Below are positions 4,324-18,695 of a DNA stretch of 24,469 nucleotides, in pieces. The translations under genes were made by a program, and so were the position numbers. The DNA is from a virus, in the IMG/VR virus record IMGVR_UViG_3300035145_001161, positions 1-24,469 of that record; one strand, 5' to 3'. The notes beneath the pieces were generated by a model. That model had not been told where the DNA came from. It saw nothing but the letters and a program-made list of their open reading frames with translations, and did not search any database. Numbering within the stretch: the stretch's first letter is position 1; each line of letters begins with the position of its first letter.

Positions 4324-4701
4324 ATGGAAAAGACAAAAACTTTTATAGAATACTTACAAGAGCAAGACTTCTCAAGCGATCAGTTGGAATCGTTAAATGA
4401 GTCTTTACAATCTGAATGGACACCTGAACTAGAAGCTAAAGTTGATGCAGCTTTAGAAGAATTCGTGAAGCAATATCAAAACGAAGATGGAAGCTACGAT
4501 ATAGAATCCTTTAATGTACAACTTACAAATGAAGGTCTATTTGGTTCTATTTTTGGAGGACTTACAGGATTTGCTTTAGGAAAGTCAGTTGGTAAAACAA
4601 TCGCTAAAGTACTAGGTGTACAAAAAGGCGTTATGTATGATATGTTAACCTCCCGATTAGTTGGTGCCGCTCTAGGTGCAGCTATCGGTTCTAAAATGTA
4701 A
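4324..4701 (+). CDS. Small protein with capsid-targeting-like N terminus and glycine-zipper tail
   Basis: A 125-residue protein. Residues 1-13 (MEKTKTFIEYLQE) match the capsid-targeting sequence of T4 internal proteins. Residues 14-66 are acidic and helical. From G71 the sequence becomes a glycine-zipper membrane-seeking region with repeated GxxxG (GLFGSIFGGLTGFALG, later GAALGAAIGSKM). A site fitting prohead-protease cleavage lies at L24-N25-E26/S27, and E70/G71 is a looser candidate exactly at the junction of the acidic and glycine-rich halves. I infer a head-packaged pro-peptide whose acidic half may be cut away to free a membrane-active segment; nothing proves this. It follows DUF1796 by 11 bases and precedes the RuvC-like gene by 3 bases. 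Confidence 0.6.
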   Translation: MEKTKTFIEYLQEQDFSSDQLESLNESLQSEWTPELEAKVDAALEEFVKQYQNEDGSYDIESFNVQLTNEGLFGSIFGGLTGFALGKSVGKTIAKVLGVQKGVMYDMLTSRLVGAALGAAIGSKM

Positions 4702-9715: not shown

Positions 9716-11155
9716 ATGGAAAGAATAAGAACATTCAAAACGTTTTCCGAGCTAAAGCAACAAGAATCTATTTCTAAGCTTAGAGAAGAAAACAATGCAA
9801 AACGCTCTGCAATTCTAGACAAGATTTCAGGTATCTTAGATGAAATGGGAATCGTTGAACTAGAAAACTTAGATGAAGAGCAAAAAACTGACTTAATCAC
9901 AAAGATATTTTTAGCAAAAGAAATGGCAGAAGAAACTGTTGAAGAACCTGCTGAAGAAGTTGCCGAAGAAGAAGCAGAGGAAACAGTTACTGAATCCGTT
10001 GAAACTGAAGAGGTTGCTGAAGAAGAAACTGAAGCCACTGAAGAGTCAGAAGAAACTGAAGAAATTACTGAAGAAGAAACTGAAGCTACTGAAGAGTCAG
10101 AAGAAACTGAAGAGGTCGCTGAAGAAGAAACTGAAGAAGTTGTTTCAGAAGGAACACGCTCTCAATTTGGTAAAATCGACAAAAAAGGAAATATCAAATC
10201 AGTATACATGCACTATGATGGTTATCCTGACCACATGTTACCTACTATTAAAAAGAACTATAAAGACGGAAAGAACGTTGATAAGGTAGTTGCTAAAGGC
10301 GGTGGTAGTGGATTAGATGCATTTAACAAGATTAACTTCTACGATGATGGAGCTTCTATTCAAGGTAACGTTAGCAAATTAGATAAGTATATTAAAGATG
10401 CTGACTATCAAGGTGGCGCTGAATATGTTTACCTATTCGATGAGAGAGATGGTAAATGGTATATGGCAGACATCTACTCTTATGACGGATTAAAGCCTGC
10501 ATTTGAAGCCGCTGAAGTTAACGAAGAAGAATTAAACGAAAGAGATAAGGCAGCTGCATATAAGAAAGCAGGTAAGTTAGGTTACAATGACCAATTCCTA
10601 GGAAGACAATCACTTTCAAAAACTTTAGCTGCTGAGCTTGGATTCGATCCTAAAAAACCGTGGACAGAAGGTATTGGATTTGACCATGTTGCAATGTATG
10701 CAATAGGTAAAAAAGAAGGTACTATTAAAGCTGATGCTCTATCTGGTAAATACACTTACGAAGATTTATTAGCAATGGCTAAAAAGTTCTTAGGTATTAA
10801 AGAATCAGTTGACGTTGAAGAAGGAAATGAATTTGGCGCTGCTAGAGCAAAGGCGATAGCTGATGGAGAAGATGAATTTGAAGTTGATGGTAAAAAGTTT
10901 AAAGTTACTGATGTAGATAAAGAAGACAAAGAGAACGCTGAAGAGTTTGCTGGTGAGTCTAAAGAAACTGAAGTAACTGAAGCAGAGGTAAAGTCAGCTG
11001 AAGAATTTAAAGAATATGCATTCTCAGTTTTAAAGCAAGCTTTTGGAGATGACTTCGACGAGGCTAAAGCACAGGAAGTTGTTGACGGTTTAGTTGATAA
11101 GCACGGAGAAGACTATGGTGCAATGGTTGGAGCCTTACAATCTTCATTAGGATAA
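9716..11155 (+). CDS. Acidic-repeat, probably head-associated protein
   Basis: 479 residues, very acidic. Residues 1-13 (MERIRTFKTFSEL) weakly match the capsid-targeting motif of its neighbours. Residues about 75-142 are a Glu/Thr/Val repeat tract (TEEVAEEETEATEESEETEE) made by a 51-base tandem repeat. V143-S144-E145/G146 then fits the T4 prohead-protease rule exactly at the boundary with a folded domain (SQFGKIDKKGNIKSVYMHYD, about 150-270). Two further small domains follow: NEFGAARAKAIADGEDEFEV and a C-terminal helical unit ending DYGAMVGALQSSLG, both of a style seen in T4-like marine phage proteins. I infer a packaged or scaffold-like protein losing its acidic half during head maturation. 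The biochemical function is unknown. Confidence 0.6.
   Translation: MERIRTFKTFSELKQQESISKLREENNAKRSAILDKISGILDEMGIVELENLDEEQKTDLITKIFLAKEMAEETVEEPAEEVAEEEAEETVTESVETEEVAEEETEATEESEETEEITEEETEATEESEETEEVAEEETEEVVSEGTRSQFGKIDKKGNIKSVYMHYDGYPDHMLPTIKKNYKDGKNVDKVVAKGGGSGLDAFNKINFYDDGASIQGNVSKLDKYIKDADYQGGAEYVYLFDERDGKWYMADIYSYDGLKPAFEAAEVNEEELNERDKAAAYKKAGKLGYNDQFLGRQSLSKTLAAELGFDPKKPWTEGIGFDHVAMYAIGKKEGTIKADALSGKYTYEDLLAMAKKFLGIKESVDVEEGNEFGAARAKAIADGEDEFEVDGKKFKVTDVDKEDKENAEEFAGESKETEVTEAEVKSAEEFKEYAFSVLKQAFGDDFDEAKAQEVVDGLVDKHGEDYGAMVGALQSSLG
10001..10138 (+). repeat. 51-bp in-frame tandem repeat coding for an acidic tract
   Basis: Two near-identical 51-base units begin at 10019 and 10070, with a partial third at 10121 and a degenerate copy before 10019. 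Each encodes 17 residues of the type EEETEATEESEETEEIT. Because 51 is a multiple of three, copy number can change without a frameshift. The units differ only at a few third positions and in the last codons, which suggests recent duplication. Confidence 0.8.
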
Positions 11156-11174: not shown

Positions 11175-12455
11175 ATGAAAAAAATCCTATCATACAAAGA
11201 ATTTATAGTGGAAAGATATGACTCTTCGAAAGAAGAGTCCTCTCTTATTCTAGAAGGTGGTGCGGCAGGTCACATGGCTCACCCCTTTGACGATAATTCT
11301 TTGACTTTTGCAGATTTTAAAAGAATTGTAACAAGTGCTTTACAAGGTAAATTAGACTTTGAGCAGGCTCCTACTGAAAAGACGGATGGTCAAAACCTTT
11401 TTGCAAGTGTAAAAGACGGTAAAACAATTTTTTCAAGAAACAAAGGTCAATTGATCGCGCCTATAGGTTTGAAAGGAATCATTGAAATGTTTACTGACCA
11501 TAAGTCAGCCTTAGTTGAAGAAACTTATATTAAAGCAGCTAAAGACCTAGATTCTGCCCTTACTTCTTTAAAAGACCAATCTATGTTTAACGATGGAAAG
11601 TCATTTGTTAACATGGAAATTATCTTTACTAAGAATCCAAATGTAATAAACTATGATAGAGGAAATTTAATACAATTTCATAATATAGTTCATACTGACG
11701 GTCAAGGAAATATAATAGGTGAGGAGCAAAAGCTAGGAACTGAATTAGCTAAGGCCCTTCAGAAAATAAAGAAAGATGTTCAACAGACTTACACAATCAT
11801 CCCACCACAAATTTTAAGGATAGCCAAAGATGTTAACTTTGATGCCAGAGTAAATTACTACTATAAGAAAATAGATGCCTTAAGAGATACGTATAAGCTC
11901 ACAGACACTGATGAAGTTAAGATGTATCATGAAAAATGGTGGAGAAGTCAAATAGAATCCGAGTTTTCAGATATACCAACAGACGCCCAAGAAGGAATGT
12001 TGCTAAGATGGGCATACGGTGACAAGAAAACTCTCGACTTAAGAGCTGTTGCAAAGTTAGTTGATAAAGACCAGCTCAAAAGAATTAAAGAATTCGACAA
12101 AATATCAGGTAAGAAATATAAAGAAAACATTTTACCTTTTGAAAACTTATTTTTAGAATTAGGAGCTGATGTTCTTAAAAACGTTTCTAATTTTGTTGCT
12201 GCTAGTCCTGATGCAGAAAAGCAAAGACTACATAAACAGATTAGAACTGAATCTGAAAAGATAAAAAAGAACGGCGATCTAAGTCAAATAAATAAAGTAG
12301 AAAAAGAGTTAAAGAGACTCGAAAGCATCGGAGGAATTGAGTCCATAGTTCCTAGTGAAGGTGTAGTATTTAAATATAACGGAAAATTATTTAAACTCAC
12401 TGGAACGTTCGCTGCTATTAATCAACTAATGGGCATAATTAAATACGTAAGATAA
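11175..12455 (+). CDS. Nucleotidyltransferase/RNA-ligase-like protein with capsid-targeting-like N terminus
   Basis: 426 residues. Residues 1-13 (MKKILSYKEFIVE) match the T4 capsid-targeting sequence, and I25-L26-E27/G28 fits the prohead-protease site just before the conserved start of the folded part (GGAAGHMAHPFDD). Covalent nucleotidyltransferase motifs follow: motif I EKTDGQNLF (KxDG with the candidate adenylated lysine), SRNKGQ as motif Ia-like, FVNMEIIF as motif III-like, and near the C terminus EGVVFKYNG and KLFKLTG as motifs IV and V. The middle is a long helical insertion. Likely reaction: ATP-dependent adenylation of an RNA or DNA end, or of a protein; substrate unknown. If packaged, it would act at the start of infection. 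It lies 19 bases after the acidic gene. Confidence 0.65.
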   Translation: MKKILSYKEFIVERYDSSKEESSLILEGGAAGHMAHPFDDNSLTFADFKRIVTSALQGKLDFEQAPTEKTDGQNLFASVKDGKTIFSRNKGQLIAPIGLKGIIEMFTDHKSALVEETYIKAAKDLDSALTSLKDQSMFNDGKSFVNMEIIFTKNPNVINYDRGNLIQFHNIVHTDGQGNIIGEEQKLGTELAKALQKIKKDVQQTYTIIPPQILRIAKDVNFDARVNYYYKKIDALRDTYKLTDTDEVKMYHEKWWRSQIESEFSDIPTDAQEGMLLRWAYGDKKTLDLRAVAKLVDKDQLKRIKEFDKISGKKYKENILPFENLFLELGADVLKNVSNFVAASPDAEKQRLHKQIRTESEKIKKNGDLSQINKVEKELKRLESIGGIESIVPSEGVVFKYNGKLFKLTGTFAAINQLMGIIKYVR

Positions 12456-12761: not shown

Positions 12762-14627
12762 ATGGCTTTACAAAAACTAAGAGAGCATTTTCAAACATCT
12801 AACATTAACTCGTTTAATGATATGTTAAAGAATAGGGTGGTAGTTACTGAAAAAATTTCAGCACCTTCTTTTCATGTTAGAAGAACGTTTAATAAGTTTG
12901 AGTATTACAAGTCTGGTAAAGGTGAGGCCATGAATATGGTTGACAGAACCGTAGTTAAATTATATGAAGCGGGTGTAAAACACATACAGAGTTTAGACCC
13001 TTCTACTAAAGAAAAAATGCCAACTGATTGGAAGTTTGGTTTTGAATATCTACCTGAAAACAACATTTCAGAATTCCAATACGAAGAGCTTCCTAAAAAT
13101 TCTCTTATTTTAAATCACATTCAACAGATTGGAGCTAACGGCAAAGTAAAGAAGATTATTAGCGACCCTTCTGTTTTAAACAAGTGGGCAGATATTCTAG
13201 AAGTTCAAAGACCTAGTGTTATTTTTGATGGAATCTTAGATGAAAATCAAAAGAAAGAACTAGTAGAGTTATTATCAACTTCAGATTCTGAGTTTAATAA
13301 CTTATATGACTATGATATAAACACTGAGGCAAAAACTTCTTTTACAATGAAAGCCTTTAAGATGTTTGAAAAGGCTTCAACTAGAACAACCCTATGCAGT
13401 GATTTAGAAAAAGAAATAGACGGATTAGTTTTAACTTTTTCTGAAGGCGGTAGACTTAGGTCTTTTAAGCTTGAAGATTTTACGAGAAAGGTTAATGAAA
13501 ACAGAAGTTCAAGTCATATCTATCAGTTAACAATAACTGACATGTTAGAATACATGACAGTCTACGACCTTAGTAGCATTCAGCTTACCGAAGAATCAGC
13601 AGACTATAGGTATATGGAGTTAATGTCAGCCGTTTTCAACGAATACCTAAAAGAAAATTCAACTAAGTATATTGGTGTTAATTTTGAAAGCGCTGATTTT
13701 GCTGATTCAGATTCTTTCAGATTAAATACAAAATACATTAAGAATGAAACAACGTTAAAGTATGTTTCTAATCCTATTTTAGCGGAGTTATTTAAAATAA
13801 CATTAGGATCGTTTAGAAAGAAAAAATCAAAAACAAGCGATATATTAGATGAAGATATGATCGCCAGATTAAATGATATTGTTGAAAAGATAGAAACACT
13901 TGTTTTTGTAGAGAACACAGATAAAAATTCTATATACGATTTTAAAAACTATATGCTTCATAACAAAGTAAAGCAATCTACATTAAACGAAGCTCTTACG
14001 GTAAAGTATAAAGAACAAGGTAAAGAGCCTGTAAATATGTTTGTTGGTAGATTTCAACCATTCACATTAGGTCATGCCAAAGTATTAGAAACTATTCACA
14101 AACAAAATGGTTTTCCAGTTGTAGTTTTCTTAGTTAAGGCTAAGAATAAAAAGAAAGAAGATTCTTTTAAAAGACCTTATGACGAGGCAACTCAACTTAA
14201 AATGTTTAAAGCAGTTCAAAAGCAATATCCTTTCTTAAAAGAGATATACGTAATTCCAACGGCTGCAATTGATGTAATGTTTAATGAAATGAGACCAAAG
14301 TATGAGCCTGTATTATGGGGAACTGGTAGTGATAGAATGAAAGTTTACGGCTATCAGGTAAATAACGATAAGTATAGAGAAGACCTTGGTGTAAAAAGTG
14401 ATTTTGGACTATATGAAATTCCAAGAACAGATGATAACATTTCTGCTACTAAAGTTAGAAATGCAATGTTAGATGGAGATGAAAAGTCATTTAAAAAAAT
14501 GACACCAAAATCCCTTCATAAATTATATGGAGAGCTTAAGAAAAAATTAGAAGACTCAGTTAACTCATCAGAAGATGTGGAAATAAAAGAATCAGTTTTA
14601 ACCTTTAAACAATTTATTGAGAAGTAA
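12762..14627 (+). CDS. Fusion of RNA-ligase-like domain and NMN-adenylyltransferase-like domain
   Basis: 621 residues in two parts. The N-terminal part (about 1-250) has RNA-ligase-like motifs: VTEKISAPSFHV with K31 (T4 Rnl2: EKIHGTNFSI), FGFEYLPE as motif III-like, E218-IDGLVLTF as motif IV, and RSFKLEDF as motif V. A helical linker follows. Residues 424-600 are a cytidylyltransferase-like fold of NMNAT/NadR type: M426-FVGRFQPFTLGH-438 (GxFxPxTxGH), PVLWGTGSDR, and ISATKVRNAML (560-570). This domain would join NMN and ATP to NAD. The extreme C terminus SVLTFKQFIEK is a capsid-targeting-like motif in an unusual place. Its stop shares one base with the next start (TAATG). Domain calls are good; the combined function is unknown. 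Confidence 0.75.
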   Translation: MALQKLREHFQTSNINSFNDMLKNRVVVTEKISAPSFHVRRTFNKFEYYKSGKGEAMNMVDRTVVKLYEAGVKHIQSLDPSTKEKMPTDWKFGFEYLPENNISEFQYEELPKNSLILNHIQQIGANGKVKKIISDPSVLNKWADILEVQRPSVIFDGILDENQKKELVELLSTSDSEFNNLYDYDINTEAKTSFTMKAFKMFEKASTRTTLCSDLEKEIDGLVLTFSEGGRLRSFKLEDFTRKVNENRSSSHIYQLTITDMLEYMTVYDLSSIQLTEESADYRYMELMSAVFNEYLKENSTKYIGVNFESADFADSDSFRLNTKYIKNETTLKYVSNPILAELFKITLGSFRKKKSKTSDILDEDMIARLNDIVEKIETLVFVENTDKNSIYDFKNYMLHNKVKQSTLNEALTVKYKEQGKEPVNMFVGRFQPFTLGHAKVLETIHKQNGFPVVVFLVKAKNKKKEDSFKRPYDEATQLKMFKAVQKQYPFLKEIYVIPTAAIDVMFNEMRPKYEPVLWGTGSDRMKVYGYQVNNDKYREDLGVKSDFGLYEIPRTDDNISATKVRNAMLDGDEKSFKKMTPKSLHKLYGELKKKLEDSVNSSEDVEIKESVLTFKQFIEK

Positions 14628-15631
14628 TGGATAGGTATAATTTTGAGAGAGCAATAAACGATGTGCTTAACGAAAACGCACACAGTAGTGTTGGTAGTTG
14701 GTTATCTTTAGCTCAACAAACTAACGTACAATCTAAACAGATGTTGTATGATAGAATTAACAAGGAGTTGTTTAATGGAAAACCACCCTATCCAAAAAGA
14801 TTAAAGCTTTCTAAATTTGATGCCTCATCATTTAAAACAGTATATTCTTATTTAAAGAAGAATAAAAAGGCAATGAATGAGCTTTTCAAACAAAAAATTC
14901 AGGGTATTGGCGCTGGAGAAATAATGTTAGCCTATATTGTTGAAAACCTAACAGTAGGTGGAGGAAGTGCTACGGTTGATTTAAATCTATTCAACGATAA
15001 CGGAACAGTATTTGACGAATGTGAGTTGAAGGAGGCTAAATTAACAGGAGCTGGTTTCTTAGAAGGATGGCAGCTAGGAGCAAATCACGCTAAATTGTCT
15101 ATTAAAACTATAGATGATTTTAAAGCACTATATAATGAGGTTAAATTTCAAGTACCTGCATTAGACCCTAATACAGATTCAGGAAAAGAATTAGCAGATG
15201 GATTTACATCTGGTGAATGGGGAACGGCTCCCGATGGAAAAAGATTTAGACACCTATCTGCAATCAAAGAAATTCCTATAGGTCAAGATAGAGAATTTAA
15301 ATTAGGACCTGGCCCTAATGGAGAAATTACAGTTAAGTATAACGAAGAACTCCTAGGAAATTTAAGTGATAGTAAAACAGTTGATAAGATAAAAGCGGCT
15401 CTTGCAGCTAAAGCTAGTTCCAAGGTAAAAACATTCGATCAGATACACACTGAACTAATAAAGAGCATGGGAGCAATTAAAGAAAAGTTTTTATTTATTT
15501 CAACTAAAGGTCCATCAGGAGGTAAAACTATACAAAACTTTTACTTTAAGAAAAATCTTCCTGGAACAACTGATAAATTACAACTACATTCTATCACCCT
15601 AAACAAATGTAAGTTTAGAGTTAAGGCATAA
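14627..15631 (+). CDS. PD-(D/E)XK-like putative nuclease or structural protein
   Basis: 334 residues, translationally coupled to the fusion gene by TAATG. Residues 91-138 contain IQGIGAGEIMLAYIVENL (G97-E98), then TVDLNLF with D118, and ECELKEAK with E133-L134-K135. The order GE...D...ExK is that of restriction-endonuclease-like folds, and phage proteins with a GxGE helix before the core are common. The rest is basic and shows no transmembrane segment. The N terminus (RYNFERAINDVLNE) loosely recalls the capsid-targeting motif but is not a clear match. Possible roles are DNA nicking or cleavage of host or modified DNA, if the fold is right; alternatively a virion protein that merely resembles it. 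Confidence 0.5.
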   Translation: MDRYNFERAINDVLNENAHSSVGSWLSLAQQTNVQSKQMLYDRINKELFNGKPPYPKRLKLSKFDASSFKTVYSYLKKNKKAMNELFKQKIQGIGAGEIMLAYIVENLTVGGGSATVDLNLFNDNGTVFDECELKEAKLTGAGFLEGWQLGANHAKLSIKTIDDFKALYNEVKFQVPALDPNTDSGKELADGFTSGEWGTAPDGKRFRHLSAIKEIPIGQDREFKLGPGPNGEITVKYNEELLGNLSDSKTVDKIKAALAAKASSKVKTFDQIHTELIKSMGAIKEKFLFISTKGPSGGKTIQNFYFKKNLPGTTDKLQLHSITLNKCKFRVKA

Positions 15632-15657: not shown

Positions 15658-18165
15658 ATGAAAAAAGTAACCACATTTGAAAATTTTCTTAACGAAAGGT
15701 CAATTAATAAAATATCTAAAGACCTAGAAGCTGTTGCGAATAAAATGGTAAAGACTGTTGGTGAGTGGAAGACTGCCAAAGGTGATAAAAAAGCTGAGCT
15801 TTTAGAAGTACTTAGAGAACTTAATAAAGAAAAGGCCGAGTTAGAAAAAGAATTAGATTCTGCAGTTGCAGGAAAAGATAGAAATATACAGCTCATTCTT
15901 ACTGAAGAAGTAGAAGCTGAAGCTCACTTCGAGAATGAAGTTAGAGATATATTAGATGAAGCTAGATATAACAAGAAAAAGTTATTAAAAGCAATCAAGA
16001 ATAAGGACGACATGTTCATTCAGTTAGGAGACGGTACTGAACTAATAGTTTACAATCCAGACTCTAACAATAAAGATAATGCAGAGATGTGGCATGATGA
16101 TGTTGTATTTGCAGTCGACCAAGACGGAGAAGAGCATGAAGTTAAATACTCAGATATTGCAGGTATTGGTGAATCTCTAGTTACTGAAGGTAAAAGAGAC
16201 AATAATAAAGTAACTACTGCTTGGAAAAAAACAGGTGTTACTGACTTACCTTCAATCGCTAAAATGTATGCTGACGCAATGGAAGATGCAAACTTCCATA
16301 GAGAAATTCCAACTTCTAAAGCGATTGGCGCAGCTTCTAAAGCAAAGGTAAAGCAACTAGGAGATATGTATACTGCTATTTCTCAAGCAGCAGGTTGGAG
16401 TGGATATGCTATTGCAAACGGTACAGTACAATACTTAAAACATATTGGTGAAGAAGGTGCTGCATCTAAGTTATTAAAAGCTATCACTAAATACGATTTA
16501 AATGAATCACTTAATGAAAGAAGGATTCAAATTAAAAGAAAATATACTGAAAATCATCCAGCACTTACAGCTGGTAAAACAGCAAGAGTTAGAAATAAAA
16601 TTTTAGAATACATTTCTGACGGCAAGCTTACACAAGACGAGTTTAATAAAATTCTATCTGAACTTTCATTAGATTCTAAAAGATGGTTAAAGAGAAATCA
16701 AAAATACTTTAACGTATCAGAAGAAGGTATCAGTCTTTCAAAATTTGGAAAGAGAATTTTAAAAGGAATTACAATTAACGAAAATCAAAACACAAAAGAT
16801 ATGAAAATCTTTACAGCATTTAAAGATTACTTACTTGAATCAGAATCAGTTGATGAAAAATACAAGATAAGTAAATCAGGAACAAAAAAAGCAGCTGAGC
16901 TTTTAATGAAAGCCCTAACTAAGGTTGATAAGTCTGACTTTGAAATCACTAAAGGTTCTTTAGAAGAAGGTGGATTTGACCTTGACCAAGATGACGTTGA
17001 ATTTGACGGAGGTTCTTATTTTATTGGCGATAACGGTGAAATAGTTAATGCAGCAGACGGTATGAAAATATACGGCAACGTTGAAGATTCAGTAAACGAT
17101 ATCGTTAAGAATCTAAAGTCAGGTAAGATGGAAATCTATGAGTCGGTTGAAGAGTCTTATGATATGTTATTAGAGGCTATTAAGTCTACTAAGTTGGCAA
17201 GAATCATGCAGATGTCAAATGATAAAGACCTTTTTAAGAAAGTTTATCAAATGTCAAAAACTCCTATTGATAAAATTGGAGATGAGAACATTTCTGAAAT
17301 GGACCCTGAAAAAGCGTATAAAGAAAAGTATGATACTAATGATGTTATCATATTCTATATCTCTACTAGAGAGAAGGAAAATCCATATAAAACAGACCAT
17401 GGCTACAACATTCCAGCTAACGCAATTATAGGTGTTACTGATGGTAATAGAAAAATCTATGAACCTGTGTATAAGCAATGGGACGCTGACCCAGATTATT
17501 CTAAAGGTAGAAAACCCGAGTCAAGAAGAGGACGTAGAGGAGTATATTCAATGTCAGCTAAAGAAAGATACCCTAAATCAGGTGCTAGCTCACCGGGTTC
17601 TAAGATAAATTTACAGGGAAGTTGGAGCTTTAACTTAGGAAACGCTAAGAGAATTGCTTCTGTTTCTGATGTTGCTTATGTTATTTGGCTTTCAGCTGTT
17701 CCAAGTGCTACGCCATTAAGAGATGAAAGAGCAAAAGCAAAAGAAGGTGCTATAGCATTCGAACATCCAAATGATTTTAAGAAAGCTAACATCGACAGGT
17801 ATAGAAGTATCTTAGCTAAAAGAGCTGATAAGCCAGAAAAAATCGACAAAGATGTTGAAAAAACAGTTGAAGCAGCTCATAAATTATTTGCTGACGCATT
17901 TAAAAAGAAGGAGATGAATCAGTATGGTTATCTTGTAGTTGGTAAAGACCCTAGAGGTAGAGATGTTACCGCTAGAGATGTAACTAGTTTTGTTTCAAGT
18001 CTTATGGATGATTGGCAAAGATATTCTGAATATCATTCAAATGCAAAGAAAGAAGAAGAACAAGGTAGAGGTGGAAGTAGCTACTATAAAAAAGAAGCTA
18101 AGTCTTACGCTTTATCAATCAAGAAAAGATTGAATAAATTTGCTAAAATGGATATTGCTTGGTAA
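15658..18165 (+). CDS. 835-residue multi-module protein, candidate packaged polyprotein
   Basis: Residues 1-13 (MKKVTTFENFLNE) match the capsid-targeting motif. Residues 17-75 are a coiled coil. A second, complete copy of the motif starts with an internal Met at residue 382 (MKIFTAFKDYLLE), as if two packaged genes had fused. Sites fitting the prohead-protease rule fall at module borders: V175-T176-E177/G178, L392-L393-E394/S395 and L504-L505-E506/A507. The C-terminal module (507-835; TKLARIMQMSNDKDLFKKVY, RIASVSDVAYVIWL, EGAIAF, VGKDPRGRDVTARD) is of a type I associate with uncharacterised T4-like marine phage proteins. No catalytic motif is recognised. It could release several injected proteins or be a large internal head protein. 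It ends in a TAATG overlap. Confidence 0.6.
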   Translation: MKKVTTFENFLNERSINKISKDLEAVANKMVKTVGEWKTAKGDKKAELLEVLRELNKEKAELEKELDSAVAGKDRNIQLILTEEVEAEAHFENEVRDILDEARYNKKKLLKAIKNKDDMFIQLGDGTELIVYNPDSNNKDNAEMWHDDVVFAVDQDGEEHEVKYSDIAGIGESLVTEGKRDNNKVTTAWKKTGVTDLPSIAKMYADAMEDANFHREIPTSKAIGAASKAKVKQLGDMYTAISQAAGWSGYAIANGTVQYLKHIGEEGAASKLLKAITKYDLNESLNERRIQIKRKYTENHPALTAGKTARVRNKILEYISDGKLTQDEFNKILSELSLDSKRWLKRNQKYFNVSEEGISLSKFGKRILKGITINENQNTKDMKIFTAFKDYLLESESVDEKYKISKSGTKKAAELLMKALTKVDKSDFEITKGSLEEGGFDLDQDDVEFDGGSYFIGDNGEIVNAADGMKIYGNVEDSVNDIVKNLKSGKMEIYESVEESYDMLLEAIKSTKLARIMQMSNDKDLFKKVYQMSKTPIDKIGDENISEMDPEKAYKEKYDTNDVIIFYISTREKENPYKTDHGYNIPANAIIGVTDGNRKIYEPVYKQWDADPDYSKGRKPESRRGRRGVYSMSAKERYPKSGASSPGSKINLQGSWSFNLGNAKRIASVSDVAYVIWLSAVPSATPLRDERAKAKEGAIAFEHPNDFKKANIDRYRSILAKRADKPEKIDKDVEKTVEAAHKLFADAFKKKEMNQYGYLVVGKDPRGRDVTARDVTSFVSSLMDDWQRYSEYHSNAKKEEEQGRGGSSYYKKEAKSYALSIKKRLNKFAKMDIAW

Positions 18166-18695
18166 TGTCAGATAAACAAAAAGACATACAAGAAGATTTA
18201 AGCCCTGCCAATATCGGCGGAATGGGCCCAGTTACTTTACCTAATGGTAGTGAACTTGGTTCTGGTGATGTTCCAGCTGGAAGAGGCGATGCCGAAGAAG
18301 AATACAAGAAAAAGAAAAAGAGAAAAAGAGAGTTAGAGATGCAAGAAAAACTAGTTCACTTGACGTTTGAAAGTTTTGTAAATGAGGCAATCGACTATAA
18401 CGATCCTGTTTTAATTAGACTAAGACAAGACAAACTTAGAAGAGCAGACATGGCTAAATTAGATGCTATGAAGAAAGAGGCTGAAAAGAACAGAAAGAAA
18501 GCCATGAGAAGATGGAATCAAAAGAAGTATGACCAGTGGCTAGAAGATGTTGCTTCTAACGGCGGCGCAGAGAATGCTTTTGATATGGCACAGAACGCTG
18601 AGTTTGAACCAGGTCTAATTGACTGGGTAGAGAAAGAATTTCCATACGATGACCCAATGCAAAGAATCCAGTGGGATATTGAGGCATACGCATAA
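18165..18695 (+). CDS. Basic/acidic protein with internal capsid-targeting-like motif
   Basis: 176 residues. I choose the ATG at 18165, which shares one base with the upstream stop (TAATG), over a TTG two codons earlier. The N-terminal 40 residues are Gly/Pro rich (NIGGMGPVTLPNG, GSGDVPAGRGD) and probably disordered, followed by a lysine/arginine run (KKKKKRKREL). Residues 62-74 (KLVHLTFESFVNE) match the capsid-targeting motif, and V72-N73-E74/A75 fits the prohead-protease rule. After it comes a helical basic region with RRWNQKKYDQWLEDV. The internal position of the motif would let the protease remove a 74-residue leader. It is the last gene before a strong terminator, so it closes the transcription unit. 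Confidence 0.6.
   Translation: MSDKQKDIQEDLSPANIGGMGPVTLPNGSELGSGDVPAGRGDAEEEYKKKKKRKRELEMQEKLVHLTFESFVNEAIDYNDPVLIRLRQDKLRRADMAKLDAMKKEAEKNRKKAMRRWNQKKYDQWLEDVASNGGAENAFDMAQNAEFEPGLIDWVEKEFPYDDPMQRIQWDIEAYA

Follow-up and report, generated by a model that had tools for sequence, protein, structure and literature searches.

A candidate capsid-targeted cargo polyprotein made of exchangeable modules bounded by prohead-protease-like sites in a T4-like phage fragment

The T4 internal proteins IPI, IPII and IPIII, together with Alt, carry an N-terminal capsid-targeting sequence (CTS) of F/YxxFhxE spacing that ends in an hxE cut site and precedes a small cargo. In the CTS of IPIII, residues 4 and 7 have been mapped to targeting and residues 8 and 10 to processing, which an aspartate at position 10 blocks (PMC9026906), and the T4 prohead protease gp21 cleaves after L/I-X-E. 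Polyvalent proteins combine many disparate domains in one polypeptide, are predicted to accompany the DNA into the host and have been likened to the polyproteins of RNA viruses; they often hold an embedded metallopeptidase or assemblin and recognizable enzyme domains (PMC5512222). Among giant-phage head proteins, those of phiKZ and SPN3US gp53/gp54 are cut by the prohead protease after X-E motifs, sometimes in several places; in ejection proteins these cuts strip propeptides from the N terminus to give a single mature product, and module exchange is not described (PMC10052503). The locus analyzed here shares the CTS, a predicted hxE cut end and small candidate cargo with T4, and the disparate domains in one chain and predicted entry with the DNA with polyvalent proteins. 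These two are the closest known systems, but neither has been described as exchangeable modules joined by head-protease sites, and we found no description of such cargo modules in the literature surveyed, which covered few subscription papers or bioRxiv preprints.

The window, the whole stretch of DNA analyzed in this work, is a 24-kb fragment (24,469 nucleotides) of a marine phage from an IMG/VR virus record, with T4-like genes that include a UvsW-type helicase and, by inspection, gp32- and DNA-polymerase-like ORFs. The ORF at 15658-18165 (+) comprises 835 open codons and encodes an 835-aa protein (P0001) with module order M1-M2-M3-M4-M5-C6, laid out as follows (arrows mark predicted cuts):

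15658..15696, + strand: N-terminal CTS, MKKVTTFENFLNE, predicted cut after E13; spacing as in T4 IPIII and in the N-terminal profile of module ORFs
15697..15906, + strand: M1 (residues 14-83), helical hairpin ending ILTE83; the homologous block in the 875-aa gene of L004 stops at VITE
15907..15960, + strand: short spacer (residues 84-101) ending LDE101↓A; L004 has an extra module, X1, here
15961..16188, + strand: M2 (residues 102-177), ending VTE177↓G; nucleotide similarity to L271 and L272 drops at both ends
16189..16506, + strand: M3 (residues 178-283), ending LNE283↓S, with LNE287↓R right behind; the block recurs elsewhere
16519..16782, + strand: M4 (residues 288-375), ending INE375; conserved in 87 ORFs, in many orders
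16801..16839, + strand: second complete CTS at internal Met382, MKIFTAFKDYLLE, ending at E394↓S; starts a separate 448-aa gene in L003-L008
16840..17175, + strand: M5 (residues 395-506), ending LLE506↓A; moves independently, with junction insertions in L006 and L150
17176..18162, + strand: C6, C-terminal module (residues 507-835), a mixed alpha/beta part and a helical bundle; 58-row alignment A4

Both targeting motifs that a preliminary description had read from the letters, one at the N terminus and a second full copy at Met382 (nt 16801), are present as complete CTSs of the T4 IPIII type. The ORF begins MKKVTTFENFLNE↓R and the internal copy reads MKIFTAFKDYLLE↓S, each with the F/Y-x-x-F-h-x-E spacing, identical to that of the IPIII N terminus in the T4 record (MKTYQEFIAE↓A); MKKVTTFENFLNE, like MKTYQEFIAE, has aromatics three apart followed by h-x-E. 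The F..F pattern falls within the first 15 residues of 70% of module ORFs versus 22% of other ORFs. Only ~5% of junctions retain a complete F..FhxE CTS, some of them with its Met; inside the chain, targeting seems dispensable while the cut site is retained. The protease-like sites proposed earlier at E177, E394 and E506 are likewise all found, and each is an insertion, deletion or end point of a module in relatives; further boundaries lie at E13, E83/E101, E283/E287 and about E375. By itself, the hxE motif is weak evidence for the three sites, because [LIVMFY]xE occurs 26 times in the 835-aa protein (13 times in a stricter form); it is the comparison with relatives that lifts them above chance.

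All pairs of closed ORFs of at least 120 aa from the viral-contig loci were compared on the insertions that separate them: pairs were aligned with long-gap scoring, and insertions of at least 25 aa with well-matched flanks, defined by alignment alone, were counted. The count gave 360 distinct insertions (238 non-redundant; median 110 aa), which are partly related by phylogeny and not all independent. [LIVMFY]xE lies no more than 9 aa from both ends in 90% of the 238, versus 21% under random placement (maximum 29%, 1000 simulations), and a stricter site is found at both ends in 50% versus 3% expected (maximum 8%); with gaps slid within alignment ambiguity, exact E↓...E↓ inserts amount to 41% versus 4% (maximum 8%, 500 simulations). 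Random placement within a protein is not enough by itself to distinguish protease sites from flexible linkers with a similar composition. The E-anchored profile reads V/I/L at P3, N/T at P2, E at P1 and S/A/G at P1', where anchoring selects P1 and partly P3, and the P2 and P1' preferences are enriched without selection; the profile resembles the L/I-X-E rule of gp21. All linkers contain hxE, and the strict form [LIV]xE[ASG] is present in 90% of them (5.2 per 100 aa) versus 0.19 per 100 aa within modules, a contrast that is partly circular because the limits of module seeds were drawn, in part, by eye at such sites. Unsplit modules provide the clean tests: strict sites number 6 versus 30 expected in C6 and 0 versus 5.5 in GTR, and control ORFs hold 383 versus 243 expected (1.6x). 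By these counts C6, never split in the seeds, avoids strict sites. Interior strict sites exceed expectation in M3 (23 versus 10.5) and M4 (18 versus 9.1), and also in K1 and EGN. The polyprotein reading is strengthened by the 238 insertions bounded by protease-like sites.

A tblastn search with P0001, the 1104-aa protein of L009 and the 668-aa protein of L006 matched none of 50,697 phage records, so no cultured relative was found there; relatives come from a comparison set of ~290 viral-contig loci. L001 and L002 encode a 1037-aa version, ~79% identical to the window protein (blastp), with an additional ~55 aa before M3 and ~133 aa after it, inserts that sit at FNE↓G...TE↓G and between NES and INE↓R. 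Separate genes near residue 382, which the preliminary description had suggested seeking, occur in L003-L008 as an adjacent pair of 875 + 448 (or 609) aa; the second gene has a CTS of its own, MKLYTNFDNFINE↓A, and its start falls precisely on the Met382 position. At the junction that corresponds to E506, L006 carries two whole modules more than L004, and L150 adds one. Separate modules had also been suspected across residues 178-507; M3, M4 and M5 do occur in other orders elsewhere, and one continuous domain over this interval is not what relatives show.

The idea of two proteins joined in one frame agrees with the split at Met382 in sister phages, but the chain is one of about six modules, not two, and the direction of the event may be the reverse. 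The C6-domain tree places the split clade and the window clade as sisters (100/96), and M4 and C6 share a single ORF in 61 of 73 tree rows, so that the two-gene arrangement may be derived; for this character, a single fission in the sister clade is the simplest account. The CTS and Met that both arrangements have before M5 suggest that M5-C6 once began a gene. Given these elements on the M5 side and the fossil-like starts (NNMKTKFIYESFSEFV..LNE↓A) upstream of C6 in other fused ORFs, CTS genes have probably been joined or parted repeatedly.

Across the loci, 31 module profiles resolve 106 module orders in at least four gene families, among them the C6 family (the 835-aa gene), the GNT family (window 9716-11155, whose modules are shuffled in relatives) and the K family. 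M2, M3, Q1, EGN, GTR, N3, K3 and K4 are each found in at least two families; M2, M3, Q1, EGN and others each stand beside 9-13 different neighbors, and N3, GTR, R6, Q2 and M4 also occur as stand-alone, CTS-bearing single-module genes. The block at 177-284 (M3), for instance, is present in other genes of L181, L107 and L261. Identity to L006 is 40% in M1, 93% in M2 and 64% in M4, and identity to the second gene of L003 is 50% in M5 and 36% in C6. Residues 101-179 (M2) share ~90% nucleotide identity with a K-family gene (L271), falling at E101 and E177, and residues 104-179 share ~90% with a GNT-family gene (L272); identity that ends at these two glutamates points to a recent exchange of M2 alone between different polyprotein genes. 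GTR (phrog_1987) stands alone in cyanophages, among them P-SSM2 (PSSM2_070, L294 2498-2947), where it begins MGTRS and has no CTS, and the polyprotein GTR starts at the same residue, directly behind the predicted cut. At the level of sequence, these comparisons document the modules and their exchange, along with where the sites lie. A further ORF family starting MPSTSKSQQRL (DUF3008-like, by eye) carries M1, X1 or R6 (L106 8717, L074 7330, L048 6908).

Pfam, PHROGs and PADLOC gave no confident function for the whole protein or its modules, and no Pfam match, including the polyvalent hallmarks (MPTase, ART, primase, ParB-like and others), exceeded the cut-off for P0001 or its modules. The AF2 model of C6 (pLDDT 80.5) returned generic helical matches only, with no recognized fold, in Foldseek and VIA-align. 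The full-length AF2 model, built on a 21-row alignment, is poor (pLDDT 56) and speaks neither for nor against the module boundaries; pLDDT is ~85 for residues 21-60 (M1).

The window fragment itself lacks a prohead protease gene, whereas four of nine related fragments score above cut-off for Peptidase_S77 (PF03420), one of them G001, the contig that carries the nearest relative, L001. The T4-like head genes of these relatives include an S77 protease gene, which adjoins the genes for portal, major capsid protein and small CTS proteins; the small CTS-motif ORFs lie between portal and protease genes, the place of the head-core genes in T4. Prohead protease and scaffold-like repeats (EYAEYVAE...) also form a single 637-686-aa ORF in relatives, with an embedded cargo-type module, EGN:

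L013, 1447-3357: fused protease/scaffold ORF with EGN
L016, 2635-4674: fused protease/scaffold ORF with EGN
L019, 2850-4910: fused protease/scaffold ORF with EGN

The capsid protein of the clade is nearest to that of the uncultured 462-kb phage LR756500 (51%) and then to those of Prevotella Lak phages (38%). We infer a Bacteroidetes host, for which near-absence of SD-like boxes is expected; one of 25 window genes has such a box, and gene starts are A-rich, as in Bacteroidetes.

We consider it probable (roughly 70%) that the 835-aa ORF encodes a CTS-targeted, packaged-cargo polyprotein that is cut in the prohead. A single N-terminal CTS would bind the precursor to the prohead core, and a gp21-type (S77) prohead protease would cut behind the glutamate of (V/I/L)-(N/T)-E↓(S/A/G) linkers, freeing about six products, namely five modules of ~70-112 residues plus the C-terminal domain of 329 residues. 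All of them would be retained in the head and pass into the host along with the DNA. The linkers would also serve as joints for the gain, loss and exchange of modules between polyprotein genes and phages, and for the fusion or splitting of neighboring CTS genes. The best reading is that the gene acts as T4 internal proteins would if strung together in one chain: T4 cargo genes yield one product each and lose propeptides alone, whereas here up to about ten modules follow one CTS, with sites between them. By analogy with the T4 internal proteins and Alt, we infer an effector role for the products.

Shuffled modules need not be cut apart. With six modules of separate distributions in one chain, the protein has the multiple unrelated domains of a polyvalent protein, and some multi-domain polyvalent proteins of other phages and plasmids travel uncut; the modules might be packaged and injected as one chain, with linkers that are merely flexible and resemble gp21 sites by composition. 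This is unlikely, as linker positions are patterned from P3 to P1', the strict site found in nine of ten linkers is avoided in C6, and linkers end in the way that the CTS does at its processing site (VNE↓A versus INE↓A). Embedded peptidase and known enzyme domains, often present in polyvalent proteins, were not found here, and the linkers match the head protease. Cutting, in turn, need not release cargo: gp22 and gp67, two core proteins of T4, are cleaved into several fragments, the long propeptides of SPN3US undergo multiple cuts and for the most part exit the head, and EGN resides within a scaffold/protease ORF, all of which would suit a propeptide or core protein whose M1-M5 are destroyed and expelled, leaving C6 as the sole mature virion product. 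We give this account a similarly small, marginally lower chance, since the modules are separately conserved, have about the size of T4 internal proteins and are exchanged between genes, and since single-module CTS genes and a stand-alone cyanophage GTR exist. That the ORF is an ordinary multi-domain protein with unremarkable hxE triplets is very improbable: the 26 triplets would allow it, but chance occurrence was rejected on breakpoint tests that fall far outside the 1000 and 500 simulations.

Compatible with the cargo-polyprotein explanation is a further, rather doubtful reading in which Met382 is a working start, so that the 835-aa chain would be accompanied by a nested 454-aa CTS-tagged protein and the second CTS would be functional, not a remnant. 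The sequence around Met382, AAGATATGAAAA, is identical to that of the true start, the scarcity of SD-like boxes fits, and a required internal start exists in T4 gp21 (PMC9026906); the start context of Met382 ranks 5th among 123 internal in-frame ATGs, but its score of 2.97 lies below the median of real starts, 4.12.

More broadly, and with somewhat less assurance than for the single gene, we lean towards the view that large T4-like marine phages, apparently kin of huge Bacteroidetes phages, share a general system of cargo cassettes, made up of several CTS-led polyproteins with interchangeable modules, in which one targeting event would load several injected effectors and the prohead-protease sites between modules would double as joints for rapid effector exchange among genes and phages. 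If so, a code of a CTS plus modules split by V/I/L-N/T-E↓S/A/G would flag many injected proteins in metagenomes and mark the start and end of each. T4-style head processing would then extend from trimming single cargo to freeing many per chain, providing a plain route to fast turnover of anti-host effectors, and the modules would be candidates for counter-defence proteins.

Other window genes bear related features:

9716..11155, + strand: second polyprotein of the same kind, GNT - acidic - GTR/phrog_1987 - N3 - EGN - G5 (phrog_1987 E 1e-14)
18165..18695, + strand: third family member, of the R2 family; CTS-like LTFESFVNE↓A in its interior; longer relatives
4324..4701, + strand: small CTS-bearing protein, N terminus MEKTKTFIEYLQE, glycine-zipper-like C terminus (weak Pfam glycine-zipper matches)
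11175..12455, + strand: CTS-bearing ligase-like protein (MKKILSYKEFIVE); CTS by inspection, KxDG-type motif by eye only

Relatives of the R2-family member reach 380 aa (L004) and 668 aa (L006), with 3-6 modules. Its N terminus, IGGMGPVTLPNGSELGSGDVPAG, resembles a stretch close to the start of the clade's major capsid protein (GMGPVSLPN...GSGDKAP, L019) and is perhaps a second head-binding element. The gene at 11175-12455, which adjoins the polyprotein gene in most relatives, shows by eye a ligase-like KTDG and late EGxxxK motifs. The 621-aa protein at 12762-14627, in which Pfam matches a cytidylyltransferase-like domain (3e-8), has the CTS-like peptide ESVLTFKQFIEK at its end, and its relatives end in LLTFKQFLENNG or VLTFAEFKK; the peptide is possibly a C-terminal targeting tag, and T4 Alt also undergoes C-terminal processing (PMC9026906). 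Directly upstream of the 835-aa ORF, at 14627-15631, lies a gene for a 334-aa protein with N terminus MDRYNFERAINDVLNE, in which the motif ECELKEAK recalls, by eye, a PD-(D/E)xK nuclease core.
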